Under the pieces are notes generated by a model, which worked only from the letters and a program-made list of their open reading frames with translations, did not search any database and had not been told where the DNA came from. The position numbers and the translations under genes are program-made. From the NCBI GenBank assembly GCA_946557785.1, contig CAMNTH010000001.1, forward strand, positions 62,001-126,000: 64,000 nucleotides of DNA. The letters run 5' to 3'. The stretch is from an uncultured Blautia sp. Its GTDB lineage: Bacteria; Bacillota; Clostridia; Lachnospirales; Lachnospiraceae. The number at the start of each line of letters is the position of its first letter. Within the stretch, counting starts at the first letter, position 1. Below are positions 1 through 51,949 of the stretch, piece after piece.

Positions 1-2
1 CT

Positions 3-10749: not shown

Positions 10750-10773
10750 AGCTATTTTATATTTTTATTTTTT

Positions 10774-12879: not shown

Positions 12880-12909
12880 ACAGCAGCGGGGAATATCCGA
12901 AAATAGTTC

Positions 12910-12938: not shown

Positions 12939-12939
12939 T

Positions 12940-13079: not shown

Positions 13080-13153
13080 GCTGTCAGACATGCTGCAGGA
13101 TATATTTGGCCTTTTTAGCTGCACGGAAAAATCAAAAACAGGAGGAATGGGAA

Positions 13154-14086: not shown

Positions 14087-14099
14087 GGGGGAACGGATT

Positions 14100-15098: not shown

Positions 15099-15136
15099 AA
15101 AGGGAAACTGCATTTTCCAAAAAAGGGAAAACAATC

Positions 15137-15145
15137 TGGTATAAT
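15137..15145 (+). promoter_or_regulatory. Extended -10 promoter, shared motif copy 1
   Basis: TGGTATAAT lies in a 19-nt stretch (TGGTATAATGTGAACACTT) that recurs exactly at 26353 before the Ser/Thr kinase gene. The upstream DNA is A-rich with no good -35. Confidence 0.6.
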
Positions 15146-36577: not shown

Positions 36578-37765
36578 ATGGCAAAGGCTAAGTTTGACAG
36601 AACCAAAACGCATTGTAATATCGGTACCATTGGACATGTAGACCATGGTAAAACAACCTTAACAGCAGCTATCACTAAAGTTCTTGCTACAAGAGTAGAA
36701 GGAAATACTGCTACAGATTTCGAGAACATCGATAAAGCTCCGGAAGAAAGAGAGCGTGGTATCACAATCTCTACTGCACACGTTGAGTATAACACAAATA
36801 ACAGACATTATGCACACGTTGACTGCCCAGGACATGCTGACTATGTAAAGAACATGATCACAGGTGCTGCTCAGATGGATGGTGCTATCCTTGTTGTTGC
36901 TGCTACTGACGGTGTTATGGCTCAGACTAAAGAGCACATCCTTCTTTCACGTCAGGTTGGTGTTCCGTACATCATCGTATTCCTGAACAAATGTGATATG
37001 GTTGATGACGAAGAGCTTCTTGAATTGGTTGAAATGGAAGTTACCGAGCAGCTTGAAGAGTACGGATTCAATGATTGCCCGATCGTTAAAGGTTCCGCAC
37101 TGAAAGCTTTGGAAGACCCGAACAGCGAATGGGGCGACAAGATTATGGAACTGATGGAAACTGTAGACTCCTACATTCCAGATCCGCAGCGTGATACAGA
37201 CAAACCTTTCGTTATGCCTGTTGAGGACGTATTCTCCATCACAGGCCGTGGTACAGTTGCTACAGGCCGTGTAGAGGCTGGTACTCTTCATGTACAGGAA
37301 GAAGTTGAAATCGTTGGTATTAAAGAAGAAACTCGTAAAGTAGTTGTAACCGGTATCGAAATGTTCCGTAAACTTCTTGACGAAGCACAGGCTGGTGATA
37401 ACATCGGTGCTCTTCTTCGTGGTGTTCAGAGAACTGAAATCGAAAGAGGACAGGTTCTTGCAAAACCAGGTACAATTACCTGCCATACCAAATTTACTGC
37501 TCAGGTTTACGTTCTGACAAAGGATGAAGGTGGCCGTCATACACCATTCTTCAACAACTATCGTCCGCAGTTCTACTTCAGAACAACAGACGTAACAGGT
37601 GTTTGCAACCTTCCGGAAGGAACAGAAATGTGCATGCCTGGCGATAACATCGAAATGACAATTGAACTGATTCACCCGATTGCTATGGGTCAGGGTCTTA
37701 CTTTCGCTATCCGTGAAGGTGGACGTACTGTAGGATCAGGCCGTGTTGCTACAATCATCGAATAA
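36578..37765 (+). CDS. tuf: Elongation factor Tu, 3' end supplied by an integrated element
   Basis: Translation GTPase, 395 residues, starting [10 protein letters not shown]. Motifs are [18 protein letters not shown] and NKCD. AAGGAGGACATTTAAA precedes the ATG; in-frame upstream codons lie in the promoter region. The last codons (GTT GCT ACA ATC ATC GAA TAA) form the left attachment site of the phage-like element. A second copy of this end, differing only at three wobble positions, is found at 47.53 kb. Confidence 0.96.
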
Positions 37766-37766
37766 T
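37743..37766 (+). repeat. attL: tuf-end copy at element left boundary
   Basis: GTGTTGCTACAAT followed by cATcGAaTAAT. The 13-nt core is identical to the right copy at 47527. Confidence 0.8.
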
Positions 37767-37830: not shown

Positions 37831-38883
37831 CTATTTTGGTACTATAATTTGGTTAAGACGTTCTGCGACTTCTCCATGTTTGTTGGGATACAGATGTCCG
37901 TATGTGTTGTTCACCATCTGAACAGTATCTCCTATGCGTTCTGCTATCAGGTGCGGAGTGAATCCCATATTGATCAATAACGAGACGTGGGAATGTCTCA
38001 TATCGTGAATTCTGATAAATGGAATCCCTGCTTTTTTAGAACCCCTCTGCATATTTCCCCTGATTAAACTCTTGGTAAAAGTAAATACCCTATCTTCTGG
38101 CTGAATGCCATATATTTTATCAGTGTATTCTCTAATCTCTTGCATAATGGCAGCAGGCATTGTAATAACCCGGATACCATTGTCTGTCTTAGGTGGGCCG
38201 ACTATATCGCTGTTTGATTTGTGCTGCAGAGATTTTGTTATGTTAATCGTATTGGCCTGAAAATCGAAATCGGACAGTGTGAGGGCCAGTAGTTCACCAA
38301 ACCGCATTCCAGAATAGAAAAGCAGCTGCAGAGCCGTGTGAGTACTGACATCTGTCACATATTGAATGAAACTGTTATATTGATCCAATGTCCAGAAATT
38401 CATAGATCTAGTTCGCTTCCCCATATGTCCGGCCCGATCGCAAGGATTAGAGGTTAAATTGTAGTAGATTACAGCATAGTTCATGATGGTTGTCATCATG
38501 TTTTGGATCCGATCGAGGTATGCATTCGAATAACCTTTGTCGATCTGTTGATTTTGCCATTCTCGAATATCCTTTGGAGTAATTGCATTCACAGGCTTAT
38601 CTTTGAAGTACGGCAGGATCCGGTTCTTGAATACATTCCTTTTCCCATCTATGCTACTCTGTCTTAGTCTGTGGCTCATATCCTCAATGTAAATGTCATA
38701 AAGAGACTGGAAACTCATATCAGGTGTGCCCTGCTGCCTTTCCAGGAAAGTACGTTCCCATTCTTTGGCTTCACGCTGGAGCTTAAAGCCACGTTTCTTT
38801 TTCTGCTTTTTAGCTCCGGTATAGTCGGTATAATAGAATTTGCAGTACCAAGTTTTGGTTTTTTCATCATAGTATGATGGCAT
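37831..38883 (-). CDS. int: Tyrosine site-specific integrase
   Basis: Phage-type integrase of about 350 residues. The N-terminal arm-binding part is basic and aromatic (TKTWYCKFYYTDY), followed by a SAM-like core-binding domain (about 60-150) and the catalytic domain. Catalytic residues: Arg194 (MRFGELL), Lys in PPKTDNG, His293-x-x-Arg296 (HDMRH) and nucleophile Tyr328 (NNTYGHLYP). The usual second His is replaced in RIGDT, a common variant. The ATG at 38883 follows AAAGGAAG; longer in-frame starts lack a site. It reads toward attL and should catalyse integration at tuf. Confidence 0.92.
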   Translation of the reverse strand: MPSYYDEKTKTWYCKFYYTDYTGAKKQKKKRGFKLQREAKEWERTFLERQQGTPDMSFQSLYDIYIEDMSHRLRQSSIDGKRNVFKNRILPYFKDKPVNAITPKDIREWQNQQIDKGYSNAYLDRIQNMMTTIMNYAVIYYNLTSNPCDRAGHMGKRTRSMNFWTLDQYNSFIQYVTDVSTHTALQLLFYSGMRFGELLALTLSDFDFQANTINITKSLQHKSNSDIVGPPKTDNGIRVITMPAAIMQEIREYTDKIYGIQPEDRVFTFTKSLIRGNMQRGSKKAGIPFIRIHDMRHSHVSLLINMGFTPHLIAERIGDTVQMVNNTYGHLYPNKHGEVAERLNQIIVPK

Positions 38884-38904
38884 ATTCATCTTCCTTTCAT
38901 TCTG

Positions 38905-38924
38905 ACCGGGCAGGGTGTGAAATG
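38905..38924 (+). repeat. Element repeat A, copy 1
   Basis: ACCGGGCAGGGTGTGAAATG, identical to 40012-40031. A shortened relative (CCCGGGCAGGG then TTGAAGGA) is at 43505. Confidence 0.7.
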
Positions 38925-38939
38925 ATTGGAAGTTGTAGT

Positions 38940-38968
38940 TTGACAAATATAAGAGATTGACATATAAT
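38940..38968 (+). promoter_or_regulatory. Consensus promoter of putative antitoxin RNA
   Basis: Perfect TTGACA (38940-38945), 17-nt spacer, perfect TATAAT (38963-38968). No open reading frame with a ribosome binding site follows, as expected for a regulatory RNA. Confidence 0.75.
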
Positions 38969-38974
38969 ATACTT

Positions 38975-39090
38975 AACAAGGGAGCCGGAAGGTGAGTGCC
39001 GATCACCCGACCCGGCGAAATATTTATTTGCTATTTAAGAAATAGTCGTCCGTACTTTACCAGAGATCAGGACGGCTATTTCTTATTTTT
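38975..39090 (+). ncRNA. Putative type I antitoxin RNA
   Basis: Predicted transcript from the consensus promoter to a hairpin with T-tail. It contains a GCCGG-aa-GGTG / CACC-cga-CCCGGC stem (38984-39015) and a second long stem AAGAAATAG-t-CGTCC / GGACG-g-CTATTTCTT (39037-39084) ending in ATTTTT. Its last 15 nt are antisense to the 3' end of the small membrane-peptide gene on the other strand, the arrangement of convergent type I toxin-antitoxin pairs. Confidence 0.55.
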
Positions 39091-39159
39091 CAGATTCAGA
39101 ATGGCAACAATCAGTAAGGCAACGCTTACGATCAGGCTTAATTCCTCATATGTACTCAT
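39076..39159 (-). CDS. Holin-like type I toxin peptide, 27 residues
   Basis: Peptide MSTYEELSLIVSVALLIVAI then LNLKNKK. It has a short polar N-terminus, one hydrophobic helix (residues 8-21) and a basic end, matching putative holin-like toxins (TxpA/BsrG-like type I toxins) that depolarise the membrane when overproduced. AAGGTGGTGA precedes the ATG. The stop codon lies inside a long hairpin shared with the opposing RNA. It probably acts as an addiction module for the element. Confidence 0.75.
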   Translation of the reverse strand: MSTYEELSLIVSVALLIVAILNLKNKK

Positions 39160-39209
39160 AATAATCACCACCTTCCGTAAGGTCTCGGATATGGTGAGAG
39201 CACGTCCCC

Positions 39210-39241
39210 CAGCTCCCTGGGTAAGTATATTATATTGTCAT
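39210..39241 (-). promoter_or_regulatory. Toxin promoter region, inverted copy of antitoxin promoter
   Basis: On the minus strand TGACAATATAATATACTTA then CCCAGGGAGCTGG. This closely resembles the antitoxin start region at 38958-38988 (TGACATATAATATACTTA then ACAAGGGAGCCGG). The locus is thus flanked by inverted promoter-leader repeats. Confidence 0.55.
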
Positions 39242-39261
39242 GGTGTGCAAATTTTAGTGGC

Positions 39262-39657
39262 TTATTTATTATCAATTATCTTTATTTCATTGATAAGAGA
39301 GTGGTTTATGTCATCTTTTATCATATCAAGAGCTGTTTGAGTTAATTGCAATAATGCAATTGAATTTAAATATTTGCAGATGTTAAAAAGCCGTTGACGG
39401 TGCCTTTCTTCGTCTTTCTTCATTTCTTCAAATTCATCTTTAATGCTTTCTGTAAGAACGTCATAAGTTAATAATTCGTCTTCTGATATTTGCAAAATTT
39501 CTGCTATTTTTTTAACAATATTGTGATCAGGTATTCTAGTATCACGTTTGGTTATAGAATATAATGTATTAATGGATATTTCTGATTTTTCTGAAAGTTC
39601 CTTAATAGTCATTCCCTTTTGTTTTAGTAATTCTTTTAATCGTATTCCAAAACCCAT
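39262..39657 (-). CDS. XRE-family repressor (CI-like)
   Basis: A 131-residue protein with an N-terminal helix-turn-helix (MTIKELSEKSEISINTLYSITK, in parts, residues 15-36) and a helical Glu/Lys-rich C-terminal part likely for dimerisation. ACAAGGAGGG precedes the ATG. It is transcribed divergently from the Cro-like gene across operators of the type TTTAGTGC. No self-cleavage (LexA-type) domain is present, so induction would require another signal, possibly a helper phage protein (inference). Confidence 0.88.
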   Translation of the reverse strand: MGFGIRLKELLKQKGMTIKELSEKSEISINTLYSITKRDTRIPDHNIVKKIAEILQISEDELLTYDVLTESIKDEFEEMKKDEERHRQRLFNICKYLNSIALLQLTQTALDMIKDDINHSLINEIKIIDNK

Positions 39658-39680
39658 GTCGTATAACCCTCCTTGTAATC

Positions 39681-39809
39681 ATAATAGCATATTTTAGTGC
39701 AATGTCAAACTTGTTTTTGCTAAAAAATTCATTAAAGCGCTATTTGGTGCTTGACATATAGGATTACATGCACTAAAATAGTGCTTGTAAACAAAAATGC
39801 ACTAAAGGA
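39681..39809. promoter_or_regulatory. Divergent lysogeny switch region with operators
   Basis: Rightward promoter: TTGACA (39751-39756), 17-nt spacer, TAAAAT (39774-39779). Leftward promoter: TTGACA complement at 39703-39708 with TATTAT complement at 39681-39686. Operator half-sites are TTTAGTGC (39693), TTTGGTGC (39743), the perfect palindrome GCACTAAAATAGTGC (39770-39784) covering the rightward -10, and GCACTAAA (39800). Confidence 0.8.
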
Positions 39810-39817
39810 GGAAAAAA

Positions 39818-40006
39818 ATGAAACTAAATAAAGAGAAGTTGGAACTCGCAAAAGCACGTGCTTGCATGGGAACAAAAGATCTTGTTGCTGCAGGAATCCC
39901 AAAAGGAACACTTTGCAGGATTGTAAGCGGTGAGGATGCAAGACCCGAAACTATCGGGAAAATTGCCAAGGCTCTCGGCGTAGACGTAACAGAAATTATT
40001 GAATAA
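39818..40006 (+). CDS. Cro-like XRE DNA-binding protein
   Basis: A 62-residue single-domain helix-turn-helix protein: TKDLVAAGIPKGTLCRIVSG forms the recognition unit and PETIGKIAKALGVDVTEIIE the rest of the five-helix fold. AAAGGAGG precedes the ATG. It is driven by the promoter whose -10 is covered by the palindromic operator and probably opposes the CI-like protein. Confidence 0.88.
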   Translation: MKLNKEKLELAKARACMGTKDLVAAGIPKGTLCRIVSGEDARPETIGKIAKALGVDVTEIIE

Positions 40007-40011
40007 ATCAT

Positions 40012-40031
40012 ACCGGGCAGGGTGTGAAATG
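40012..40031 (+). repeat. Element repeat A, copy 2
   Basis: ACCGGGCAGGGTGTGAAATG, identical to 38905-38924, immediately downstream of the Cro-like gene. Confidence 0.7.
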
Positions 40032-40120
40032 GTTTGAAGGATCATTACATCAATCCGTATTTTCTTATACGGTTCCAATTCTTGGAAAAGTCATGTTCTA
40101 TGATGTTATCTTATAGAAAT

Positions 40121-40136
40121 TTGCGCCGGCGCAAAA
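40121..40136 (+). repeat. Palindrome TTGCGCCGGCGCAA, copy 1
   Basis: Perfect 14-bp palindrome followed by AA. The same 16 bases recur at 41518-41533 inside the ERF gene. Here it sits just before the ribosome binding site of the broken HTH gene. Confidence 0.7.
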
Positions 40137-40149
40137 GAAAGGAGAATAC

Positions 40150-40604
40150 ATGAGATTAAACACAAAGAAGTATGCAGAGATCATGCAGGAAAAGAACCTG
40201 AGTACAGGCGATATTTGCACCAAAACAGGTTTGCTTGAAAGTTCCTTTAACTGGATTATGAAAATGGCGGTTTCGCCGAAATTCCTACGCTTGAACGTCT
40301 TGCAGAGGCAGCAGGCGTTGATGTGAAAGATATTAAGCGACCAGATGTAACCGGATATTGCGAAAATGAAATTGAATTTGTAAAGGGTGGAGAAACCGCT
40401 ACGCTTTCTCTCTCGCAAGGACGTTATATTTCCAGAGTGAAAGAGTTGGCAAAAAGATTTCCGGAGGAATGTAAAATCATAGCTTGTAATAAAGACGGCA
40501 GCATTTGTGCGCATATTCCTGTTGTATGGATAAAAATAAATCCACCAAGGAAGTTGACAGAAGAGCGGAAAGCTAATGTTACTTCAAGGCTCAACTCAAA
40601 ATAA
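40150..40604 (+). pseudogene. Phage HTH regulator disrupted by a one-base frameshift
   Basis: The frame starts MRLNTKKYAEIMQEKNLSTG and runs to a TGA at 40324. The continuation IPTLERLAEAAGVDVKDIK...SRLNSK is in another frame ending at 40604. Adding one A to the AAAA run at 40261-40264 restores MKNGGFAEIPTLERL, a normal XRE-type helix-turn-helix followed by an 80-residue C-terminal domain. AGAAAGGAG precedes the ATG. It is either a real single-base deletion or a homopolymer sequencing error. Confidence 0.8.
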
Positions 40605-40759
40605 TTTCTACAGCCTGTACACAGGGCTTTAAACCGTAAAATATTGATTTAATTTGTCCGGGTGTAGAAATTATAGGCTAGAGGATTTTGTAAAGAAATT
40701 CACAATTTGAAATGCACAGTAATGTATTTCTACAGGGAATGAAAAAGGAGGTAGATTCC

Positions 40760-40933
40760 ATGTACACGTACAGAGTAATCAAAGAGGATCCTTACACCGG
40801 GCAGCAGGCAAAGCGGAGCCGGACAATCACAAAGAACCGTCAGTTTAAAGTTGGTGGTCTGTACATTCATATTCCCGGCCTGAAAGGCTGCTGGCGTGTC
40901 CTGGAACTCGTAGAAGGGAGTGAAGAGGAATGA
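40760..40933 (+). CDS. Small phage-type protein, unknown
   Basis: A 57-residue protein starting MYTYRVIKEDPYTG with beta-rich character (FKVGGLYIHIPGLKGCWRVLEL). AAAGGAGG precedes the ATG at 40760. It ends in a four-base ATGA overlap with the next gene. No known domain; the compact beta pattern suggests a small nucleic acid- or protein-binding fold, not certain. Confidence 0.7.
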   Translation: MYTYRVIKEDPYTGQQAKRSRTITKNRQFKVGGLYIHIPGLKGCWRVLELVEGSEEE

Positions 40934-41124
40934 CAAGGCAGTTTGTAACAGCGAAAGAAGTAGCTGAGATCATGGGCGTATCAGAAGGTAAGGCGTACGG
41001 TGTGATCCGGGAACTGAACGCCCAGTTAAAGAATCAGGGATACATAACCATTTCCGGGAAGGTGAACCGGACGTTCTTTGAAGAGAAATGCCTGTATGGC
41101 GCAAAGGTTGGTGAAGCCGGATGA
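40930..41124 (+). CDS. Excisionase-like small HTH protein
   Basis: A 64-residue protein with a winged-helix/MerR-like N-terminus (FVTAKEVAEIMGVSEGKAYGVIRELN). This is the pattern of excisionases and ICE-type Xis proteins that direct integrase toward excision. ATGA overlaps link it to both neighbours. It could instead be a replication-module regulator. Confidence 0.7.
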   Translation: MTRQFVTAKEVAEIMGVSEGKAYGVIRELNAQLKNQGYITISGKVNRTFFEEKCLYGAKVGEAG

Positions 41125-41798
41125 ATGTTCATGAGAAGCTGCTGCATGTCCAGCAAAATCTAAAAGCCCCAAAGAGCCAGTATAACAAATTCGGTGATTT
41201 CCATTACCGGAGCTGTGAAGACATCCAGGAAGCAGTTAAGCCACTTCTGGCCGAAGTCAAGGCCATATTGCTGACAGGGGATGAAATTGTCCAGATCGGC
41301 AGCAGGTTCTACATAAAGGCAACCGCTATTTTTCAGGACACGGAAAGCCCGGAATGCGTCATAAATACAGCCTTTGCCAGGGAAAATGAGGAAAAGCCAA
41401 AGATGGACGCGGCGCAGATTACTGGTTCCTGCAGCAGTTATGCCAGGAAATATGCTTTAAATGGTCTGTTCTGTATTGACGATTCCAAGGATCCTGATAC
41501 CCAAGAACAGAAGCCAGTTGCGCCGGCGCAAAAAGGAACGTCCTGGCAGCAAAGAAGCCAGGCCAGGCAGCAGGTGACTAAGGAAGATCTGGACAAGCTT
41601 TGCAGGGAAGCCGAACGGACAGGAACAGATCTGTCAAAAGTATGTGTCCGGTATAAGGTTCGGAACATTAAAGAATTGACTCCGGAGCAATATCAGAGGG
41701 CAATGAGCGCTTTCCGGAAAATGGAGACGATTCCACCGCCCGCACCGGATGAACAGTACGAGCTTGATTTTAACGAAAATGAAATGCCGTTTCGGTAG
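41121..41798 (+). CDS. ERF-family single-strand annealing protein
   Basis: A 225-residue recombinase of the phage ERF family, which anneals single-stranded DNA during recombination-dependent replication. The family core is at residues 5-125: SQYNKFGDFHYRSCEDI, KATAIFQD and the conserved AQITGSCSSYARKYAL then NGLFCIDD. A Gln/Ala-rich linker and a helical C-terminal domain follow. It overlaps the preceding gene by four bases. The palindrome TTGCGCCGGCGCAA lies inside it at 41518. Confidence 0.88.
   Translation: MNVHEKLLHVQQNLKAPKSQYNKFGDFHYRSCEDIQEAVKPLLAEVKAILLTGDEIVQIGSRFYIKATAIFQDTESPECVINTAFARENEEKPKMDAAQITGSCSSYARKYALNGLFCIDDSKDPDTQEQKPVAPAQKGTSWQQRSQARQQVTKEDLDKLCREAERTGTDLSKVCVRYKVRNIKELTPEQYQRAMSAFRKMETIPPPAPDEQYELDFNENEMPFR
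41518..41533 (+). repeat. Palindrome TTGCGCCGGCGCAA, copy 2
   Basis: Identical 16-nt copy of the sequence at 40121, located in the linker region of the ERF gene. Confidence 0.7.
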
Positions 41799-41809
41799 AG
41801 AGGAATAAT

Positions 41810-42565
41810 ATGAGCAGCAAAGAGAAGCAGCCTAAAGGTTTTTTGATCTATTATGATAATGAGATTATAGTGTACCGCTTACCGGATGATGAAGCTGGGA
41901 AACTTTTTAAATCGCTTTTTCCTTATGGACGGGAAAATATCAAACCAGATTTTGAAAGCAGTCCGGCACTTGCTATGGCATTTGATATCTTGAGTATGGC
42001 TATTGACAGTGATAAAAAGCAATACTATCAGCGGTGCGAAAAGAACCGTGAAAATATTGTTAAACGATGGAATAAAAATAATACGACTGAATACGACCGT
42101 ATACCACCGATTACGAAAGATACCAATAACAATAACAATAGCAATACCAATAGCAATAACAATAAAGATAATATTAATTATCAGCTTATAGCTGATATGT
42201 ATAATGACACTTGTGTGTCATTTCCAAAAGTGACCAAACTATCTGACAAAAGAAAAAAGGCGATCAAAGCCAGAATGAAAGTTTACACTGCAGAGGATTT
42301 CCGAAAGCTTTTCCAGATGGCAGAGGAGAGCAGTTTTTTAAAAGGGCAGAATGATCGGAATTGGTCTGCAACCTTTGACTGGCTGATTGCAGACAGTAAT
42401 ATGGCGAAAGTCCTTGACGGTAATTATAAGAATCGGCAGCAGTCAGGAAGCAGTAATATAGCTGCAGAAGAACAGGCGCGACTTAGCAGGGAGAGATATA
42501 AAGCCGAATGCAAAAAGTACGGGCTTGACCAGCCGATTCCCGGTAGTGAAGATATCTGGGGGTGA
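41810..42565 (+). CDS. Phage replisome organiser-like protein
   Basis: A 251-residue protein. The N-terminal part (residues 1-90: GFLIYYDNEIIVYRLPDDEAGKLF) resembles the DUF6291-type domain of Firmicutes phage replication proteins. An Asn-rich low-complexity linker (residues 100-122) is encoded by repeated AAT/AAC codons. The C-terminal part (DMYNDTCVSFPKVTKLSDKRKKAIKARM, in parts) resembles the segment of replication initiators that contacts the helicase loader. It overlaps the next gene by one base, so it is coupled to the DnaC-like ATPase. Confidence 0.78.
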   Translation: MSSKEKQPKGFLIYYDNEIIVYRLPDDEAGKLFKSLFPYGRENIKPDFESSPALAMAFDILSMAIDSDKKQYYQRCEKNRENIVKRWNKNNTTEYDRIPPITKDTNNNNNSNTNSNNNKDNINYQLIADMYNDTCVSFPKVTKLSDKRKKAIKARMKVYTAEDFRKLFQMAEESSFLKGQNDRNWSATFDWLIADSNMAKVLDGNYKNRQQSGSSNIAAEEQARLSRERYKAECKKYGLDQPIPGSEDIWG

Positions 42566-43449
42566 TGCAGGTGGACGAAAGTAAACTGTCGGAATCCTGT
42601 GTAAAAGGATCCTGCCCTATGGCACATTACACTATAGACATGACACCGGAACAGGTGATTGGCCGTAGAGCCTATATCCGGAGTGTTTTACGGGGAGGGT
42701 ACTGGCAGAACCTTTCCAATGCGGAACTGGATAATATCCGCCTGCTGCACGAAGAGAACGGTTATCTCCTGGAGGATACCGAAGGAAGGATGTTCTTTCT
42801 TCCTGGAAAAGTGATACCGAAGGTGCAGGCAGAATTCCGGAAGGTTCGGGCTATGATGCCGTTTGAGTTTATCGGCCTTACCGGGAAGGATTTTAATTGG
42901 GATCTGTATCATGAAGACGTTACTGATGCAAAAGGGACGGTAAATAGGTTCATCATAAAGTTTGAGCAATTCCGAAAGGAGGGAATGGGATTGTACATAG
43001 AGTCTTCTGTGAAGGGAAGCGGAAAAACCATGCTGTCCTGCTGCATATTAAATGAACTGGCAAAGCGTTATGCCATTACAATTAAGTTTATCAATTCCCT
43101 TGATCTCCTGGAACTGACTAAACAAGCCTACAAGGGCACAGAGCCGGAAGAGCTTACAAGCCTGTATCAGGCAACCGTATTAGTAATTGATGATATCGGC
43201 GTACAGATGTCCAGGGAATGGATAGACACAGTATTTTACAGGCTGATAAATGCCAGGTATAACAATCGTCTGGTGACGATCTATACCAGCAACGTGGCAG
43301 CAGGCTTCCTAAAAATGGATGAGCGCATTGTTGACCGTATAGAAGCCACTACCTACCGGCTATTACTTCCGGAAGAGGGGATCAGGAGCCGGATCCGCAC
43401 GCAGCAGAAAGAAAAGATCATGGAAACAATTAAAAATGCCCCTGCATAA
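42565..43449 (+). CDS. DnaC-like replicative helicase loader ATPase
   Basis: An AAA+ protein of about 294 residues. Walker A is SVKGSGKTML near residue 152. Walker B is VLVIDDIGVQ near 212. Sensor I (TIYTSN) and the Arg finger region (ERIVDRIEATTYRL) match helicase loaders of the DnaC/DnaI family. The start is ATG 42565 in a TGATG overlap (a GTG at 42562 is possible). With ERF and the organiser it makes a complete phage replication-initiation module. Confidence 0.87.
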   Translation: MQVDESKLSESCVKGSCPMAHYTIDMTPEQVIGRRAYIRSVLRGGYWQNLSNAELDNIRLLHEENGYLLEDTEGRMFFLPGKVIPKVQAEFRKVRAMMPFEFIGLTGKDFNWDLYHEDVTDAKGTVNRFIIKFEQFRKEGMGLYIESSVKGSGKTMLSCCILNELAKRYAITIKFINSLDLLELTKQAYKGTEPEELTSLYQATVLVIDDIGVQMSREWIDTVFYRLINARYNNRLVTIYTSNVAAGFLKMDERIVDRIEATTYRLLLPEEGIRSRIRTQQKEKIMETIKNAPA

Positions 43450-43573
43450 GCACCACCTTACACAAGGGCCAGCATAGCCGGAGCCATGCACGCTCTATTT
43501 CAAACCCGGGCAGGGATTTTGAAGGAGCAATTACAGCATAGCACACTTTCCGGCAGAAAGGGAAGGATTTTTT

Positions 43574-43858
43574 ATGAATAGACAGCCTAAATACAAAAGA
43601 GAACTGCGACAGGCTATTATTGAAAATATTAATGCTATGAAAAATAGCATGGTATTGAAAAATATATATATTCTTTCTGATATTCTCAGGAGGGGGTATG
43701 ATGAAAAAGAATGGGAAACTTTAACAGATAATGAATGGGAAGTGATTACGTTATTTAACGAGATAATCTATCATAAAGATTCCAGAAAGTTGCATTCCGT
43801 GAGTGTGTTTGCAAATTGTTTTTTAAACCGCAAAAAGAAGGTGGCGCAAAATGATTGA
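43574..43858 (+). CDS. Small hypothetical element protein
   Basis: A 94-residue basic, helical protein (NRQPKYKRELRQAIIENINAM) with no recognised domain. GGAAGGA precedes the ATG. Its end overlaps the following small gene by eight bases. The 124-nt gap before it carries a partial copy of element repeat A. Confidence 0.65.
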   Translation: MNRQPKYKRELRQAIIENINAMKNSMVLKNIYILSDILRRGYDEKEWETLTDNEWEVITLFNEIIYHKDSRKLHSVSVFANCFLNRKKKVAQND

Positions 43859-44015
43859 GAATGCCCGTAAGGAATCCGTGACTGAAATCAAAATTAAAAC
43901 AACAGATGAACAGCGTGAAGAAATGAAAGAAAGAATTGATAGATTATTATCCGAAACAGATACACTTACGCTTACCAGGGCTTATTATCTGCTTGTAGGA
44001 TTTATTTACGGATAG
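43851..44015 (+). CDS. Small protein, 54 residues, ribbon-helix-helix-like
   Basis: MIENARKESVTEIKIKTTDE starts the protein; the rest is helical and ends ARAYYLLVGFIYG-like (TRAYYLLVGFIYG). A beta-strand (EIKIKT) followed by two helices resembles a small ribbon-helix-helix DNA-binding fold, but this is tentative. It overlaps the upstream gene (ATGATTGA). Confidence 0.55.
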   Translation: MIENARKESVTEIKIKTTDEQREEMKERIDRLLSETDTLTLTRAYYLLVGFIYG

Positions 44016-44024
44016 GAGGTAAGC

Positions 44025-44180
44025 ATGAGCGTTCTGATCAGAATATCCTACCAGACGCCCCAGGAGCTGGAAAACATCCTGAAGCTGCTGCACCCGGCCA
44101 TTAAGTCAGTAAAGATTAAGCAGGGGCAGCAGGGAGCCTACAAGAGGGCGTACATAGAAATTGATCTGAAAAAGGCATAG
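44025..44180 (+). CDS. Small hypothetical protein, 51 residues
   Basis: Starts MSVLIRISYQTPQELENILK, then a basic strand (SVKIKQGQQG) and an alternating strand (AYKRAYIEIDLKKA). Overall a beta-alpha-beta-beta pattern. AGGAGG precedes the ATG. It is conserved-looking but not assigned to a family. Confidence 0.6.
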   Translation: MSVLIRISYQTPQELENILKLLHPAIKSVKIKQGQQGAYKRAYIEIDLKKA

Positions 44181-44210
44181 AATATTATGTCAACTTTACA
44201 AAACCTGACG

Positions 44211-44256
44211 TTCGCGCGTGTATACTACCCAAGAAAACCCGATATTCGCGCGTGTA
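44211..44256 (+). repeat. Two direct repeats TTCGCGCGTGTA
   Basis: Copies at 44211-44222 and 44245-44256, 34 bp apart (start to start), in a gene-free region just upstream of the ncRNA promoter. They could be binding sites for a regulator. Confidence 0.65.
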
Positions 44257-44304
44257 GTAACCTGAAACCTATGTGTGTATGGAGAATGTTATTAAATGTT
44301 ATGG

Positions 44305-44333
44305 TTGCGTACATGTGGAAAATCTGTTATACT
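44305..44333 (+). promoter_or_regulatory. Promoter of structured RNA
   Basis: TTGCGT (44305-44310), 17-nt spacer, TATACT (44328-44333). The expected start is at about 44339, at the first base of the closing stem of the RNA. Confidence 0.7.
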
Positions 44334-44337
44334 ATGT

Positions 44338-44472
44338 CTTAAGCAAACAGAATATTTAAGTACCCCGGCACTGTCTTCTCCCAGTGACGGAAGCCTGAGA
44401 TATCGGCGTGGGAAATAATGAGGGTTACCTTGGAACCCTGATTGTTTCCTACGCCTTTTTTGTTTGCTTAAG
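44338..44472 (+). ncRNA. Candidate structured noncoding RNA of unknown class
   Basis: About 135 nt closed by a perfect 11-bp stem CTTAAGCAAAC / GTTTGCTTAAG. Inside are CACTG / CAGTG with loop TCTTCTCC, and GGCGT-g-GGAAA / TTTCC-t-ACGCC, which encloses AGGGTT / AACCCT. A T-run follows the ACGCC arm (44456-44461), so the RNA may end there, or the outer stem may compete with the terminator. It has its own promoter and no start codon with a ribosome binding site. It lies between replication and capsid genes. I cannot place it in a known family. Confidence 0.6.
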
Positions 44473-44489
44473 TGTTCATTATGATTCAA

Positions 44490-44530
44490 GCCCGGGAGCT
44501 TTTGCTGGATGTTCACTCCCGGGCTCCTTT
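44490..44530 (+). terminator. Second hairpin downstream of the RNA
   Basis: GCCCGGGAG / CTCCCGGGC perfect stem, 17-nt loop, weak T tail (TCCTTTCT). It could end transcription before the scaffold gene or insulate the RNA. Confidence 0.55.
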
Positions 44531-44568
44531 CTAAAGTTACTGAAACTATAAACAGGAGGTTAAGAAGT

Positions 44569-45063
44569 ATGTTAGAGACAGAAGAGCCCACCGGAGGGAA
44601 TCCGGGAAATAAAGAAATGAACGTGGATACCACGGGGCAGCAGGAAACTGCAGCACAGACAGAACCCACAGGGGCAGAAAACGAGAAGACATTCACCCAG
44701 GAAGAGGTGGATAAAATTGTAGAGAAACGCCTGAACCGTGAAAGAAAGAAATTCTCCAGTATTCTGAATGGAGACGATCCAAGGGAAGCAGAACTTGTAG
44801 AACGGGAAAGGGCGGTAGCAGAAAAGGAACTGCGGATAGAAGCTACAGAGACATTTATGAAAGAGAACCTTCCGGCTGAACTGCTGGATTTATTGAATTA
44901 TACCGACAAAGAATCATGCGAAAAGTCCATAGAGCTTGTAAGAAAGACTTTTACCATCAACGTTCAGGCAGCAGTAGAGCGCCGTCTCTGGGGAGGAAAG
45001 CCGCCCAAAAAAGCGGTGAATGACCCCACAGGTGACCTCCGGGGAGCTTTTGGGCTTAGATAG
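44569..45063 (+). CDS. Phage capsid scaffolding protein (DUF4355-like)
   Basis: A 164-residue, acidic, coiled-coil protein. Its N-terminus is rich in Thr/Glu/Gly. The central QEEVDKIVEKRLNRERKKF motif is characteristic of DUF4355 scaffold proteins. The basic C-terminus (RRLWGGKPPKKA) is suited to bind the capsid protein. AGGAGG precedes the ATG at 44569. It sits immediately before the major capsid gene, the standard order, but no portal or protease gene precedes it. Confidence 0.87.
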   Translation: MLETEEPTGGNPGNKEMNVDTTGQQETAAQTEPTGAENEKTFTQEEVDKIVEKRLNRERKKFSSILNGDDPREAELVERERAVAEKELRIEATETFMKENLPAELLDLLNYTDKESCEKSIELVRKTFTINVQAAVERRLWGGKPPKKAVNDPTGDLRGAFGLR

Positions 45064-45083
45064 CATGTAGAACAGGAGATCAT

Positions 45084-45950
45084 ATGGCAATTAATTTAGT
45101 GACCAAATTCGTCCCTTATGTGGATGAACAGTTTTCAACAGAAAGTAAAAAGTCGCTCCTGACAAACCAGGATTTTGACTGGACAGGGGCACACACCGTA
45201 AAGGTGTATAAAATCACCACTTCCGAAATGAATGACTATGATCGGAGTGGAACGGGTGACAATCCTTCCCGTTATGGCTCTATTGCTGGCCTGGATGCCA
45301 CAACGGAAGAGTTTACTCTCAAGAAGGATCGTTCTTTCACCTTTGCGATCGACAAGCTGGATACGGATGAAACGGTACAGCAGTTGGGTGCAGCTTCCGC
45401 ACTGGCTAGGCAGAACCGCGAAGTTGTTATTCCTGAGGTGGATACTTATGTTTATAGCGTTATGACTGCCGGGGCAGGAACGAAGCCTGCTGCCATTGCG
45501 CTGACTTCTGAAAATATCTACGGGGAAATACTGAAAGCCGGGAACACCCTGGATAATGCGGAGGTACCGGAGTCCGGCCGTATCCTGGTAGTTACACCGG
45601 ATACATACGTCCTCATGAAAAAATGCAAAGATATCACTATGGAGACTGACATCGGCAACGACATGCGGATCCGTGGCGTGATTGCAAACCTGGATGGCGC
45701 TATGGTGATGAAGATCCCGGCAAACCGCCTGCCGAAGAACTTCGGCTTTATGTTGGTACATCCGTGTGCAACGGTAGCCCCTACGAAGCTTGAAGATTAT
45801 AAGATCCATGTGGATCCGCCGGGAATCAGCGGTTCCTTGGTGGAAGGTCGTATCTGCTATGATGCGTTTGTCCTGGAGAATAAGAAAATGGCAATCTATT
45901 ATCAGGTGCAGCCGGCAGCTACACAGCCAACAACTCCGGAAGGAAAATAA
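45084..45950 (+). CDS. Major capsid protein (HK97-fold type)
   Basis: A 288-residue protein with the layout of a major capsid protein of small siphophages: a short N-terminal arm (LVTKFVPYVDEQF), an E-loop-like region (VKVYKITTSEMNDYDRSG), and a spine-helix/P-domain segment (ENIYGEILKAGNTLDNAEVPESGRILVVTP, in parts) typical of HK97-like coat proteins. It lacks an N-terminal delta domain, consistent with a separate scaffold. AGGAGATC precedes the ATG. No other head gene is adjacent. Confidence 0.85.
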   Translation: MAINLVTKFVPYVDEQFSTESKKSLLTNQDFDWTGAHTVKVYKITTSEMNDYDRSGTGDNPSRYGSIAGLDATTEEFTLKKDRSFTFAIDKLDTDETVQQLGAASALARQNREVVIPEVDTYVYSVMTAGAGTKPAAIALTSENIYGEILKAGNTLDNAEVPESGRILVVTPDTYVLMKKCKDITMETDIGNDMRIRGVIANLDGAMVMKIPANRLPKNFGFMLVHPCATVAPTKLEDYKIHVDPPGISGSLVEGRICYDAFVLENKKMAIYYQVQPAATQPTTPEGK

Positions 45951-46284
45951 TAATGGGTGCCCTGAACTTTCCCAGGCGGATTGTTTGGGGCATTTTGCAA
46001 CGTTCCGGATATTTCCAAAACGACAAATACAATATCAGGATATTACATAAGCGAACGTTTTGGGAAAAGGATGTTAGTGTTTGTTAGTATTTCCGAAACA
46101 ACACGAATACATGTAATATCCGGTAAATTCAAGGATTCAGCTATTCTGAACGTTCGGAATAATTAGCGAACGTTGCGTATAAAAAACCTTGTAAACCCTA
46201 AGATAAAACTGTAAAAACGTTGCGTTTCCAAAACCAACGAATATCGTACGCTTCCAAAGCTATGGAGGAAAGGATAGTGCATTA
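45951..46284 (+). other. Gene-free region with AACGTT repeats
   Basis: This 334-nt stretch has no credible gene. It holds five AACGTT palindromes (45999, 46054, 46149, 46169, 46216), several extended as GCGAACGTT or AACGTTGCGT. A long-range 11-nt inverted repeat GGATATTACAT (46038) / ATGTAATATCC (46111) is also present. It may be a replication origin, packaging site or regulator-binding region. Confidence 0.55.
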
Positions 46285-46467
46285 ATGAAGGATTATTCAA
46301 AAGAACCCTGGTGGAATGGCCTGACCAGGAAAGAAAAAGAAGAAGTTCTCCGGCTAGAGGGCGTTGAGATTTCCAAGGAAATGGATACCGGGGATAAACA
46401 GCCCACGGTAGAGACGCCTTCGCATAAGAAACATTTTAAAGCAATAGATCTATTTGGCTGGGGATGA
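46285..46467 (+). CDS. Small hypothetical protein, 60 residues
   Basis: MKDYSKEPWWNGLTRKEKEE begins the protein, which is charged and short and ends KAIDLFGWG. GGAGGAAAGGA lies upstream, somewhat far from the ATG. No known domain. It precedes the sigma factor gene by 40 nt and may be co-transcribed. Confidence 0.55.
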   Translation: MKDYSKEPWWNGLTRKEKEEVLRLEGVEISKEMDTGDKQPTVETPSHKKHFKAIDLFGWG

Positions 46468-46507
46468 ACCTGGCCGGGTAGGTAAATAACTGTAGGGAGC
46501 TAATACC

Positions 46508-47467
46508 ATGACCAATGAACAGTTAGTGATCCGGATCAAGGCCTGGATAGATGTAGCTGAGAATATGCTGCAGCTCTGGCAGCAGAACCAGGGATTCATA
46601 GAGACGATTGCAAAGCGCTTCCGTGGCTATGAGGATATGGAGGACTTAAGGCAGCAGGGCTATATTGGTCTTTGCAATGCTGTAGATGGTTATAATCCGG
46701 ATGAGGGTGTTCTGTTTTTGACCTATGCAGGTTTCTGGATCCGGCAGAGTATGCAGCGGTATATAGAAGAGTGTGGGAGCGTTGTCCGGATTTCTGTGCA
46801 TTGTCGTAACCGTATCCGGGAATATGAAAAGTTCTGCAGAACGTTTGAATTATATTACGGCAGGAAGCCTACGGATGGCGAAATATCGTGTTATCTTGAC
46901 ATGGATGAGGAAAAGCTGGCAAGCATCAGAAAATCCGCCCAGATGTCAAATATAGGCTCTCTGGACGTTCCTGTAGGTGAAGGAGAGGAAGGCACCATGT
47001 ATGACCTGCTTCCCGGTGCAGAAAGCCCGGAAGAGGATATTGTAGAGAAGCTGCAGCAGGAACAGCTCCAGGACACATTATGGGGCATGGTGGATGATCT
47101 GCCGGGGCAGCAGCCGACAGTGATCCGGATGCGGTACCAGGAAGGGAAATCATTGAAGGAAGCCGGGGATAGAATCGGCTGTACCGTGAACCAGGCCAGT
47201 GATATCCAACACAAGGCACTGAGAGCCATGAGGGAGCCACGCAGAGCCAGAGTGCTGCAGTCTCTTATGTACGGTGATAGTTACAGCAAGGCACTGAGAG
47301 GAAATGGCGTAGAACACTTTAACCGCACCTGGACAAGCTCCACGGAGTACACTGCCATAGAAGAAACTGAACACTGGCTGCAGAGGATGTTTCCGGATAG
47401 AGTGAGCGGTACCGAAATGGTACTAGAAAAAAGTGCAAACATTTCAAATGAGTTAAATTCTTGCTAA
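46508..47467 (+). CDS. Sigma-70 family RNA polymerase sigma factor of the element
   Basis: A 319-residue sigma factor. Region 2 (about 40-105: YEDMEDLRQQGYIGLCNAVDGYNPDEGVLFLTYAGFWIRQSMQ, in parts) is intact and followed by region 3-like sequence. Region 4 (about 195-250) carries a recognition helix in SLKEAGDRIGCTVNQASDIQHKALRAMR. The roughly 70-residue C-terminal tail is unassigned. GGGAGC precedes the ATG. It is the last gene before the right attachment site, and could direct late or transfer-specific transcription. Confidence 0.88.
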   Translation: MTNEQLVIRIKAWIDVAENMLQLWQQNQGFIETIAKRFRGYEDMEDLRQQGYIGLCNAVDGYNPDEGVLFLTYAGFWIRQSMQRYIEECGSVVRISVHCRNRIREYEKFCRTFELYYGRKPTDGEISCYLDMDEEKLASIRKSAQMSNIGSLDVPVGEGEEGTMYDLLPGAESPEEDIVEKLQQEQLQDTLWGMVDDLPGQQPTVIRMRYQEGKSLKEAGDRIGCTVNQASDIQHKALRAMREPRRARVLQSLMYGDSYSKALRGNGVEHFNRTWTSSTEYTAIEETEHWLQRMFPDRVSGTEMVLEKSANISNELNSC

Positions 47468-47526: not shown

Positions 47527-47550
47527 GTGTTGCTACAATTATTGAGTAAT
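47527..47550 (+). repeat. attR: displaced tuf 3' end
   Basis: GTGTTGCTACAAT then tATtGAgTAAT encodes the same last residues (V-A-T-I-I-E-stop) as the functional tuf end, with three synonymous third-base differences. No tuf body precedes it. Confidence 0.8.
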
Positions 47551-49261: not shown

Positions 49262-51949
49262 ATGGCCGAATTTGAAAATATGCGTCTTTGCGGCGGCACC
49301 TTCCTTGTGCTGTTGTTTGAAGCAAAAGGTCAGCGCCGCAACTCCCGCATGGGAGAAGGACGCTCCTCTGACGGAAAAAGCAACCCAGAAGTATTCAGCA
49401 ATTTGGTTCTTACGGTAAATCCCAAATTCCAGATGCCTTCCGGCCGCTCGTTCAATACATTTACTTCCGACTATAAACTGTGCCGGAGTTCCGATAGCCC
49501 CTCAGTAGGGCTGTCCAACGAATTGCTTATCCGGCAGTTTGATAATGACATAAAAACAAAATACTATGAATGCCTGGGGCTGTTCGCCTGTAGGCTTGAA
49601 CGAGCCATCGACTTTGAGGTCAAAGGCCCCTGGCTCGTTGCTGCGCTCATTGATCTGATTGACGCAGACAGTACCATTCCTGATGACGCACTGTTTCATG
49701 TGCGCCCCTATGGTCACACTGTTAAAAAGGCGGATTTGAGAAGCATCGAATGTATCTGCATCACTTCCTTCGTTTTTGGCGTATGGCACTATATTGTTAC
49801 CCAAGTACGGGATAACACCGTTGGTGCTGACACCATTGACCTTCTATTGGAAAATAAATCCGAAACCAGAGTCCAGCGTAAATTTGCATCCAATATTGGC
49901 AAAAAGACCGTTTCTGAAATCAAGACCGCCGTGCAGCCGCCGGAATGGGAGTGGGAAAATTACCATGACCCCGAACTTGAGGCAGCCACCAAGAATATTC
50001 CGTTTGCCTTTATTGCTCCGGGCGTAGCTGCCGATGTGCGTAACATTCAGAACGGACAAGTCTTCATAAACGGCAGCCAGGTATTTTACCTTGATGGGAA
50101 GGAGCACGAATCCATCCCTTCATATGATGGCACACCGTTTGATACATATTTGGAAAAAGCAACGGAGTTCTACTCCAAGGTAAAGACCCTGCTTTATTCC
50201 GAAGCCCCTCGTAAATTCCGAGATTTTTATGTGCCGAATGAGGTAACTTGCAAGAGTCTTAACACTATCGAGGCTGCAAAAGTCAATACAAGACCCATGG
50301 AAGTGCTTGTAGATGATGGCGTAAGTGATATCATCATCCGAGGCACAGGCGGCATTGGCAAGTCAATGATGATGCGCCACCTGCTGCTGTTCTTTGCAGA
50401 ACATTTTGATAAGAAGAAAAATCTGCCGATCCTCGTACCGCTGAAGATCTTTACAAGTACAGAGCCGAATCTTGAAGGCTTCATTTATAAGGCTGTGCAC
50501 GAATTCCATCACGATATTGAGTTTGAGGATGTTGAACCGCTATTGAAAGCCGGTAAGTGCGTTATTCTTCTGGACGGATTGGATGAGATTCCCGGCAATG
50601 CCAGACACCATTTTGATAACTGCCTTGTTAACTTTAAGAAGGCTTATCAACGGAACCGTATTGTTCTATCCTCAAGACCTACAAGCAATTTTGTTCAATT
50701 AGGGCATTTTTTGGTGGTTGAAATTGAACCCTTCAGTAAAGAAAAGGCATTGGAACTGATTGATAAGCTGGAATATCACGACCAGGAAGCCAAGGCGAAG
50801 TTCCGCGATGACCTTGATAAGAAGCTATATAATTCCCATAAACAGTTTGCAAGCAATCCCCTGCTGCTGACCATTATGCTCATGACCTATACCTCATACG
50901 GTGAGGTTCCGGCAAAACGTCATGTGTTCTATGCAAAGGCATACGAAACCATGGCACGTCTACACGATGCATCCAAGGGTGCCTATGTCCGCCCAATGCA
51001 CACGGGGCTGTCTCCAGAGGATTTTGAAGTATACTTTGCTGAGTTTTGTGCGAGAACCTACAGAGCTGAGGTTCTGGAATTTGACGAACGTATCTTCTGC
51101 GGATATATGGAAAAGGTAATCCGCCATCAGCGCCGCAAGATTGATGCCGCGCCGCGGGATTTCCTTTTAGATCTCACGGACAACCTCTGCATCATGTATA
51201 AGGAAGGCGAAAAATACTACTTCATTCACCGGTCTTTCCAAGAATATTTCAGTGCCATATTCTTTTCCGATCAGATGGATGACCAACTGGAACGCATCGG
51301 CGTATTTTTTGAGAATCAGCGTCACCGCCAGTTTGGTGACCGTACCTTTGGCATGATGTACGATATGATACCGAATCGTATTGACCGCTATATTTTTGTA
51401 CCGTTCTTGAAGCTGCTGTGGGAGAAATGTGATACCGGAAACGGCTACTGGACTTTTCTGGAAGAAATGTACCCCACAATATTTGCCCAAAAAGGTGAAA
51501 CCGGCGATTACTATGAAAATGACCCGGAATCCTATCTTTATAATTTTATTGTCAATGAATCGCTGCACCGGCACAACGGCGAACTCTATGATATGCAATG
51601 GCCGGATTCCATTGATTACTGCGGGCGGAAAGAATGGGTATCTATTGAAAAGGAAAGACAATATACGGGCGGAAAGCGCCGTTGCATAACAGAAATGGCA
51701 GAATATAACCATGTAGCGGAAGATTATATCGAAATGCACGGAGAGCCGGAAATTGAAGGTGTATCCTGGGAAATCCAAATTAGTGATCTTCTTGAACGCA
51801 GAGACCGTTTCAGCACACTCATTGCATTCATGGAGGATGATGCCTTCCCGCTGAAAAAGGAATACAAGGAAATGCGGAAGTTCACGCAATGGCTTGATAA
51901 AACTATAAACGAGAAACCATCTTCTGATGATTGGTTTGATTCTTTCTAA
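49262..51949 (+). CDS. NACHT-domain NTPase, candidate anti-phage defence protein
   Basis: An 895-residue single-gene STAND NTPase. The N-terminal 220 residues (GGTFLVLLFEAKGQRRNSR, then FGVWHYIVTQVRDNTVG) form an unrecognised alpha/beta domain, with no nuclease, TIR or protease motif seen. A linker precedes the NACHT domain: Walker A GTGGIGKS at 361-368, Walker B VILLDGLDEIP with Asp438, sensor LSSRPTS, then winged helix-like sequence. A 200-residue C-terminal region follows without clear LRR, TPR or WD repeats. AAAGGAG precedes the ATG. Bacterial NACHT proteins are known to abort phage infection. The location beside mobile elements supports that role here. Confidence 0.88.
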   Translation: MAEFENMRLCGGTFLVLLFEAKGQRRNSRMGEGRSSDGKSNPEVFSNLVLTVNPKFQMPSGRSFNTFTSDYKLCRSSDSPSVGLSNELLIRQFDNDIKTKYYECLGLFACRLERAIDFEVKGPWLVAALIDLIDADSTIPDDALFHVRPYGHTVKKADLRSIECICITSFVFGVWHYIVTQVRDNTVGADTIDLLLENKSETRVQRKFASNIGKKTVSEIKTAVQPPEWEWENYHDPELEAATKNIPFAFIAPGVAADVRNIQNGQVFINGSQVFYLDGKEHESIPSYDGTPFDTYLEKATEFYSKVKTLLYSEAPRKFRDFYVPNEVTCKSLNTIEAAKVNTRPMEVLVDDGVSDIIIRGTGGIGKSMMMRHLLLFFAEHFDKKKNLPILVPLKIFTSTEPNLEGFIYKAVHEFHHDIEFEDVEPLLKAGKCVILLDGLDEIPGNARHHFDNCLVNFKKAYQRNRIVLSSRPTSNFVQLGHFLVVEIEPFSKEKALELIDKLEYHDQEAKAKFRDDLDKKLYNSHKQFASNPLLLTIMLMTYTSYGEVPAKRHVFYAKAYETMARLHDASKGAYVRPMHTGLSPEDFEVYFAEFCARTYRAEVLEFDERIFCGYMEKVIRHQRRKIDAAPRDFLLDLTDNLCIMYKEGEKYYFIHRSFQEYFSAIFFSDQMDDQLERIGVFFENQRHRQFGDRTFGMMYDMIPNRIDRYIFVPFLKLLWEKCDTGNGYWTFLEEMYPTIFAQKGETGDYYENDPESYLYNFIVNESLHRHNGELYDMQWPDSIDYCGRKEWVSIEKERQYTGGKRRCITEMAEYNHVAEDYIEMHGEPEIEGVSWEIQISDLLERRDRFSTLIAFMEDDAFPLKKEYKEMRKFTQWLDKTINEKPSSDDWFDSF

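Follow-up and report, generated by a model that had tools for sequence, protein, structure and literature searches.

Known phage satellites remodel or hijack the shell of their helper phage or, in the case of the capsid-forming phage-inducible chromosomal islands (cfPICIs), build a whole head and pack it. In the parts of the sources available to us, cfPICIs are described as encoding a major capsid protein (MCP), protease, portal, connectors, both terminase subunits and HNH (PMC10690885), a full head and packaging set that is also given in a review (PMC11389934). The island SaPIbov5 makes Ccm, which takes the place of the capsid protein at pentamers and is unable to form capsids by itself (PMC5052747, PMC8569155), and EfCIV583 is described as having no capsid genes (PMC3675006, PMC6893505). 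A 2026 paper presents the first satellites that build chimeric tails with their own tape measure (PMC12987554), and a Faecalibacterium capsid operon with TerL and portal is presented as a candidate gene transfer agent (PMC12946183). In the open-licence literature we found, among the matches listed, no report of Clostridia satellites with scaffold and MCP genes and no packaging genes, which does not imply absence from print. Here we describe an element of this composition in a 64-kb stretch of contig CAMNTH010000001.1 from an uncultured Blautia sp. (the window), inserted at the 3' end of tuf.

Judging from its sequence and those of its relatives, we consider it very probable that the element is a phage satellite in integrated form, one of a widespread Clostridia family, and that it would build its own shell and borrow portal, terminase and tail. 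The evidence that carries this reading is its gene content, its att-bounded position at tuf, an architecture that recurs, the existence of circular or tandem relatives, and purifying selection on the MCP. Moreover, terS-like sequences are seen at the level of the family, and a conserved RNA precedes the structural genes.

Gene content and recurrence of the element at tuf

An earlier note on this DNA had listed integration, switch, replication, scaffold, MCP and sigma factor genes in less than 10 kb, all of which are present by Pfam or phrog matches, and had reported packaging, protease, tail and lysis genes as missing. Neither terminase nor portal was found anywhere in the window with local hidden Markov models (HMMs), for which 23 TerL and 22 portal sequences were used, and TerS was not found by tblastn with two phage TerS queries, the only ones used. 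Tail and lysis genes were found neither among the scanned open reading frames (ORFs) of the window, several small ones of which match no family, nor by searches in which tail, holin and lysin sequences of three phages served as queries. No protease or HNH gene turned up among the scanned ORFs, no dedicated profile search for them being made. A missing protease carries little weight, since no gene annotated as a protease lies beside the MCP in the related phages that we retrieved.

The same composition recurs in relatives, designated below by L numbers. We found 45 MCP loci in genomes, 60%–80% identical to the MCP of the window, and 10 in IMG/VR, 72%–79% identical; all 118 matching phage MCP records are below 60% identity, the best among the matches listed reaching 49%. 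By the local HMMs, both TerL and portal occur in one of these 55 loci (L065) and are absent from the other 54, and the phrog_2 TerL was detected in 0/8 virus records. Packaging must thus be borrowed as well. A scaffold-like ORF lies directly upstream of the MCP in 52 of the 54 elements with enough sequence, the window included. At least 5 kb upstream and at least 1.5 kb downstream of the MCP are available for 33/56 elements including the window (32/55 relatives). In 29 of these 33 there is a tyrosine-integrase ORF, identified by eye in three main clusters; the remaining four carry a Mu-like transposase pair (L052) or another recombinase, by eye probably of the serine type (L049, L051, L064). 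The replication module varies among relatives, with Erf/DnaD/DnaC, DnaB-like, primase or helicase types. L052 has a satellite-type scaffold and MCP beside a Mu-like transposase and a MuB-like protein (L052:5527-8260), and may be a transposable satellite.

The earlier note had suggested looking for the same gene order elsewhere, and the outcome of this search favors a satellite. Two Parablautia copies are likewise inserted at tuf, the att repeats being separated by 9,274 bp in L059 and by 9,185 bp in L061. Three further relatives have end repeats of 45-77 nt and were read as circles (L057, 8,333 bp; L077, 9,407 bp; L084, 8,555 bp), and a fourth, L083, is tandem-like with a repeat period of 8,513 bp. 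We observed purifying selection on the MCP: the ratio of nonsynonymous to synonymous substitution (dN/dS) is 0.05–0.14 in the 10 pairs out of 13 for which it could be obtained, two pairs being identical and one saturated. For the scaffold, dN/dS is 0.16–0.47 in eight pairs. There are also broken copies; the MCP of L008 has two TAA codons and that of L010 one TAG, and the MCP match is split in L071, L072 and L074. No relative in the MCP group was found with a full set of head and tail genes, the finding that would have shown the element to be a deletion product; tail genes were sought with the three-phage queries only, and the nearest case is L065, with TerS, TerL and portal.

The features of the element in the window are the following (helix-turn-helix is abbreviated HTH).

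37743..37766 (+), att site, left end, at the tuf 3' end; direct repeat with 47527-47550
37831..39006 (-), tyrosine integrase; PF14659/PF00589/PF14657
39262..39657 (-), CI-like HTH repressor; PF13443, phrog_8
39818..40006 (+), Cro-like HTH protein, divergent from the repressor; homologues in 28/56 elements
40150..41124 (+), small early ORFs at 40150, 40323, 40712 and 40930
41121..41798 (+), Erf-like single-strand annealing protein; PF04404, E 1.8e-43
41810..42565 (+), DnaD-like replication initiator/loader with DUF6291 N-terminus; phrog_10469, E 1.2e-35, PF19808
42562..43449 (+), DnaC-like helicase loader; phrog_50, E 3.8e-34
43574..44015 (+), two small ORFs (43574, 43851); no Pfam match
44025..44180 (+), 51-aa signature protein o44025
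44192..44211 (+), candidate packaging site of helper type (copy 1), made of two 10-bp units; 3 mismatches to the terS pattern derived from phages only
44286..44305 (+), candidate packaging or operator repeat, copy 2, 10-bp lag; 0.27 expected by chance per 64 kb
44305..44333 (+), predicted sigma-70 type promoter, TTGCGT-17-TATACT; 8/12 consensus positions
44337..44473 (+), structured leader RNA (putative leader); outer stem around two hairpins, with a U run after the second
44509..45063 (+), capsid scaffold (DUF4355/Gp46); PF14265, E 3e-12, phrog_172, E 2.9e-20
45084..45950 (+), HK97-type MCP; phrog_422, E 3.1e-62
46285..46467 (+), small ORF, seen as open reading frame
46508..47467 (+), sigma-70 family factor, three-region; PF04542/04539/04545, phrog_351, E 1.2e-44
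47527..47550 (+), att site, right end

The element thus runs from 37743, at the tuf 3' end, to 47550, the end of a second copy of the tuf end, slightly wider than the interval 37831..47467 first noticed. Its att core is a 24-nt direct repeat, 21/24 identical between the two ends, with a spacing of 9,784 bp (~9.8 kb). It is therefore compact and att-bounded, with an integrase and a divergent HTH switch, as a satellite should be, and its integrase is 86% identical to those of L059 and L061. A weak HTH match was obtained for the ORF at 40930, which also has relatives in other satellites. The scaffold start with a ribosome-binding site is probably the ATG at 44569. In a profile comparison, the MCP matched a phage capsid protein of solved structure (PDB 8e16 gp6, E 4.5e-9). 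We ruled out that this protein is an encapsulin, the NCBIfam encapsulin score being 19 bits against a cut-off of 100, with strong matches to phage head and scaffold families.

In the genus, the tuf 3' end serves as a hotspot of integration: 13 of 60 genomes carry a second copy of its last ~55 nt at a distance of 0.8 to 37 kb within one contig. The MCP search found no MCP in 18 tuf-flanking pieces fetched from these 13 genomes, which thus indicate the hotspot and not further copies of the element. An empty integration site was sought in two near genomes (L137, L138), where the flanks differ and none was seen. The last 59 nt of tuf (37708-37766) also match, at 95%, a 4.3-kb unannotated 'Bacteriophage sp.' (MT839393), perhaps another tiny element at the same site. 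The region 49262-51949, 1.7 kb past the right att site, encodes a NACHT NTPase with a SNaCT14 C-terminus (PF22720, PF05729), likely an antiphage protein of STAND type.

Candidate packaging sites upstream of the scaffold

When satellites and prophages of the same genome were compared, short near-identical stretches upstream of the scaffold were seen to match the phage terS region (L035/L166, 33 nt at 94% and 20 nt at 100%; L067/L163, 38 nt at 84%). One long match in this comparison, 391 nt at +943 in L057/L167, is probably a shared neck gene. We then compared satellites with 15 phages and obtained eight short matches with both ends in the chosen intervals, where 0.31 were expected, the intervals having been set after looking. 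With the intervals preset, 40 further phages again gave eight matches with both ends in place (0.59 expected), 8/8 on the same strand; 16 other matches had only the phage end in place and four only the satellite end (TerL was located in 34/40 of these phages and its position assumed for six). High-scoring segment pairs below 34-35 bits, above 90 bits or longer than 70 nt were dropped in these counts.

Pooling both phage sets, terS segments of the 55 phages gave 32 matches, of which 18 fell between the replication genes and the scaffold, an interval that makes up 11.5% of satellite sequence and was here slightly wider and set after looking; the other 14 fell elsewhere. For the 18 matches in the interval, the binomial P is 1e-9, and 18/18 are on the same strand. 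The segment before terS gave two matches in the satellite interval and 16 elsewhere, and the TerL and portal segments 0-1 and 1-5. One pattern was derived solely from phage sites, six of them, picked by eye in phages in which repeats had already been seen. It had 13 plus-strand matches (at most 3 mismatches) in the satellite interval, in 10/56 elements including the window, and none in 388 kb elsewhere (plus strand counted). An earlier pattern was written with the window in view and is biased, so that weight should be placed on the preset 40-phage test and on the phage-only pattern. Five phage sites lie in frame beside an AGYS motif, which we take to be part of the DNA-binding region of TerS.

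Direct repeats at a lag of 10 bp are commoner in the satellite interval and in the phage terS region than elsewhere. Their density in the satellite interval is 0.87 per kb, versus 0.05–0.28 at lags of 9 or 11–16 bp, and 0.04–0.21 per kb for the 10-bp lag elsewhere in the elements; in the phage terS region it is 0.47 per kb versus 0.09 in the TerL-portal region. Exact searches of IMG/VR with the window repeats returned 0, 2 and 0 contigs; L219 is a sibling satellite, and L220 matched no query. The terS-like sequences most likely represent recognition sites of a helper-type TerS. The enrichment itself is strong at the level of the family and weak for the copy in the window.

Several observations weigh against this assignment. 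The terS BLAST match falls in the satellite interval in only 13/56 elements, and the 10-bp-lag repeat occurs in only 15/52 satellite stretches, versus 11 for an 11-bp lag. Four minus-strand matches to the phage-only pattern fall in the same stretch. In the window, the site at 44192-44211 has 3 mismatches to this pattern, with 0.41 such sites expected per 64 kb, and the terS BLAST scores of the window copy do not exceed those of control stretches. Finally, the repeats can adjoin promoters, both in satellites and in phage L215, and could therefore be regulator sites.

This last point leads to an explanation that we regard as unlikely but worth serious attention, namely that the repeats bind a late activator or repressor common to helper and satellite and have no part in packaging. 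In the window, one repeat directly adjoins the -35 box of the leader promoter, a placement also seen in several satellites, the repeat of phage L215 abuts a good promoter, and in phages L186, L163, L212 and L169 the repeats lie upstream of terS. However, in nine phages the 10-bp-lag repeat is inside the predicted terS frame and not at its promoter, and the satellite matches are upstream of the RNA start in 16/16 elements tested, up to 732 nt away from it.

A structured RNA and sibling elements with other cargo

Between the repeats and the scaffold, positions 44325-44480 of the window fold with a z-score of -7.7, and Rfam gave no match at E<=1. We built a model of this RNA (R1) from eight sequences, the window among them (112 bits), which match it by construction. 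In 65 satellite sources the RNA (~130 nt) was matched 42 times, in the window, 34/55 MCP loci and 7/9 sibling loci, some of the loci being fragments; with the same model at E<=1 it was absent from 63 phage regions (811 kb). A search of 299 whole genomes gave 12 matches in 11 genomes, 12/12 of them in MCP satellites or in siblings with the gene for the 51-aa protein. Of 34 base pairs, 27 changed on both sides. The structure has a covariation score of 0.58, whereas slid structures reach 0.13 at most, in an alignment fitted to the RNA model, which favors the score.

The RNA is preceded by a promoter-like sequence in most elements. After removal of four duplicates from the 42, we surveyed 38 distinct copies over 61 nt (55 upstream plus the first 6). 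A -35/-10 pair with at least 9/12 consensus positions is present in 31/38, versus 12% of shuffles, and one with at least 8/12, the level of the window, in 36/38, versus 49% of shuffles. In 30/38, 5-10 nt separate the -10 box from the end of the searched stretch, which places the box within a few bases of the RNA start. Transcription of the structural operon thus probably starts at, or close to, the first bases of the RNA. The spacer between the -35 and -10 boxes is often ACCCCCTATATGTGG or close to it (e.g., in L031, L033, L036 and L039) and is possibly an operator for a regulator. Near the RNA end, 37/38 copies have a run of at least four U. The second hairpin and its U run, which the outer stem sequesters, resemble an intrinsic terminator; our guess, to which we give a little less than an even chance, is that the RNA is a leader gating expression of the structural operon.

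The 51-aa protein o44025 was matched by tblastn only in satellites among the loci compared. Its profile gave 15 matches in 299 genomes, seven in MCP satellites and eight elsewhere. The eight o44025 regions without MCP have a downstream sigma factor in seven cases, an integrase in five and an upstream replication match in four. These siblings keep the RNA, the 51-aa protein and the sigma factor, and the slot of the scaffold and MCP holds tape-measure genes or genes that match nothing recognizable. (L243, a weak o44025 match with none of these chassis genes, is not counted as a satellite, yet is among the nine sibling loci scanned.) L241, located at a tuf end, has a tape-measure gene. L219, from IMG/VR, is a 13,389-bp unit with a 127-nt end repeat (record 1-13516) and carries a tape measure and a Peptidase_S74 tail protein, as well as a 10-bp-lag repeat array, the RNA and the sigma factor; it gave no match to capsid, portal or terminase HMMs. 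The terS matches of siblings number one in place and two elsewhere. In L236-L242 the slot has uncharacterized proteins of ~170-270 aa, some coiled-coil-looking; these are possibly capsid-size or assembly factors.

Tentatively, since we think it has somewhat more against it than for it, we propose that MCP satellites and siblings form one large, undescribed family of gut Clostridia with a shared chassis and a slot for virion remodeling. The chassis would comprise the integrase, the switch, swappable replication genes, the 51-aa protein, terS-derived sites, a satellite-specific RNA at a strong promoter, and the sigma factor; the slot would hold scaffold plus MCP here, a tape measure plus tail protein in L219, a tape measure in L241 and uncharacterized proteins in others. 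The RNA would be the satellite counterpart of known phage RNAs and act in trans, in packaging, in head assembly or as a helper-sensing switch.

Alternatives, mechanism and comparison with known satellites

The search for a helper did not yield a partner: co-resident prophage type points to no specific one. Satellites co-reside with phrog_64 portals in 16/38 genomes versus 43/299 in the family sample (p 1e-4) and with phrog_12 portals in 14/39 versus 69/299 (p 0.11), the two genome sets overlapping in part. Within the sample, the association with phrog_12 (6/9, p 0.006) is as strong as that with phrog_64 (4/9, p 0.03), so co-residence is not specific to one portal type. This counts against the satellite reading, as does the genome of the window itself, which is 95.8% complete and gave no match to the phrog_2 TerL, phrog_12 portal or phrog_64 portal, the only families searched, so that a helper would have to come from outside. 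In addition, 23/55 loci have short flanks.

With regard to its origin, the element might be an incipient or degenerate cfPICI, either a reduced branch that lost its packaging genes or an ancestor in the course of gaining them, which we judge improbable. The link would be L065, in which TerS, TerL and portal lie between the MCP (70% identical) and the sigma factor (11258-15139), possibly tying the family to capsid-forming satellites that have packaging genes. A minor head protein is encoded in L033, and a head-tail adaptor or neck protein in some relatives. (Some have what is presumably an ArpU-like regulator.) An MCP is encoded throughout (phrog_422 in the window), and portal with both terminase subunits only in L065. 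An MCP tree was built from 66 rows, identical ones having been removed from 72. In it, 53 satellite-type rows stand apart from Javan246, phiOH2, Dulem virus 31 and one Lachnospiraceae copy, with moderate support (85/88), and L065 is nested among satellites without packaging genes, which makes a gain in L065 at least as simple. In the three full phages with related MCPs, TerL comes first, followed by the portal, a minor head gene, a scaffold or small ORF, and the MCP; TerS is annotated in two of them.

Alternatively, and with a still smaller chance, the satellite MCP and scaffold may never form a whole shell, and may instead mix into the helper shell or poison its assembly in the manner of Ccm. 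Such a satellite capsid homologue is described as working only together with a helper protein (PMC8569155, PMC5052747, as far as the available text goes), and the portal must come from outside in 54/55 loci here too. However, the available text of these sources describes no separate scaffold for Ccm or the helper phage, whereas a scaffold-like ORF stands beside the MCP in 52/54 elements; Ccm is given there as sharing only 19%–24% identity with the helper protein, in contrast to the strong conservation of this MCP among satellites; and L065 even has its own portal and terminase. As for a trimmed prophage that lost terminase, portal, tail and lysis genes, which the earlier note had set beside the satellite as its alternative, we reject it as very unlikely: although all gene types are phage-like and a few copies have broken MCP frames (L008, L010), the compact architecture without TerL and portal recurs in 54/55 loci, with tight att bounds, circular or tandem assemblies and selection on the MCP, the leader RNA and 51-aa gene were not found in phage regions, the MCPs stand apart from phage MCPs with moderate support, and relatives that keep the missing genes while genes decay, as for a defective prophage, are not what we found.

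If the element is a satellite that builds its own shell, its cycle may be envisaged as follows. The CI/Cro-like switch would respond to a helper phage, upon which the element would excise and replicate with its own Erf/DnaD/DnaC-like proteins. The promoter near 44305 would start the structured RNA and the scaffold-MCP-sigma operon, and the satellite MCP and scaffold would form a procapsid, probably small, around the helper portal. Helper TerS would recognize the terS-like sites upstream of the operon, leading helper TerS/TerL to package satellite DNA, and helper tail and lysis proteins would complete the particle. Should this be true, the family builds only the shell and lends it to the portal and motor of the helper, a step between satellites that remodel or hijack a helper shell and those that make and fill a head, and this step would make the evolution of capsid theft testable. 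Matches between packaging sites could then pair satellites with helpers from sequence data, and the RNA would provide a signature for finding such satellites in gut genomes.

The likenesses to described systems are partial in each case, and are drawn from the available portions of the sources. Like the window family, cfPICIs have their own capsid genes and are expected to borrow tails; unlike them, the window family lacks portal and TerL in 54/55 loci. SaPIbov5 shares a capsid-protein homologue, and has a cos packaging site that resembles that of its helper (PMC5052747), but Ccm needs the helper MCP, whereas the window family has a conserved scaffold-MCP pair, a leader RNA and a sigma factor. 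The islands PmCI172 and EcCICFT073 are said to encode a capsid-like protein (PMC6893505), but in Gram-negative hosts and, by that description, with no scaffold pair or leader RNA. The Streptomyces phage satellites Mulch and Flayer have portal, MCP and scaffold (PMC10690885); they also have both terminase subunits and no obvious replicase in the text available, whereas the window family has replication genes and no terminase. Finally, PLE11 resembles the family in that satellite virion parts substitute for those of the helper (PMC12987554), tape measures being found in the siblings L219 and L241, although the PLEs (phage-inducible chromosomal island-like elements) belong to another host phylum and have another chassis, with modified helper capsids described in the same source.

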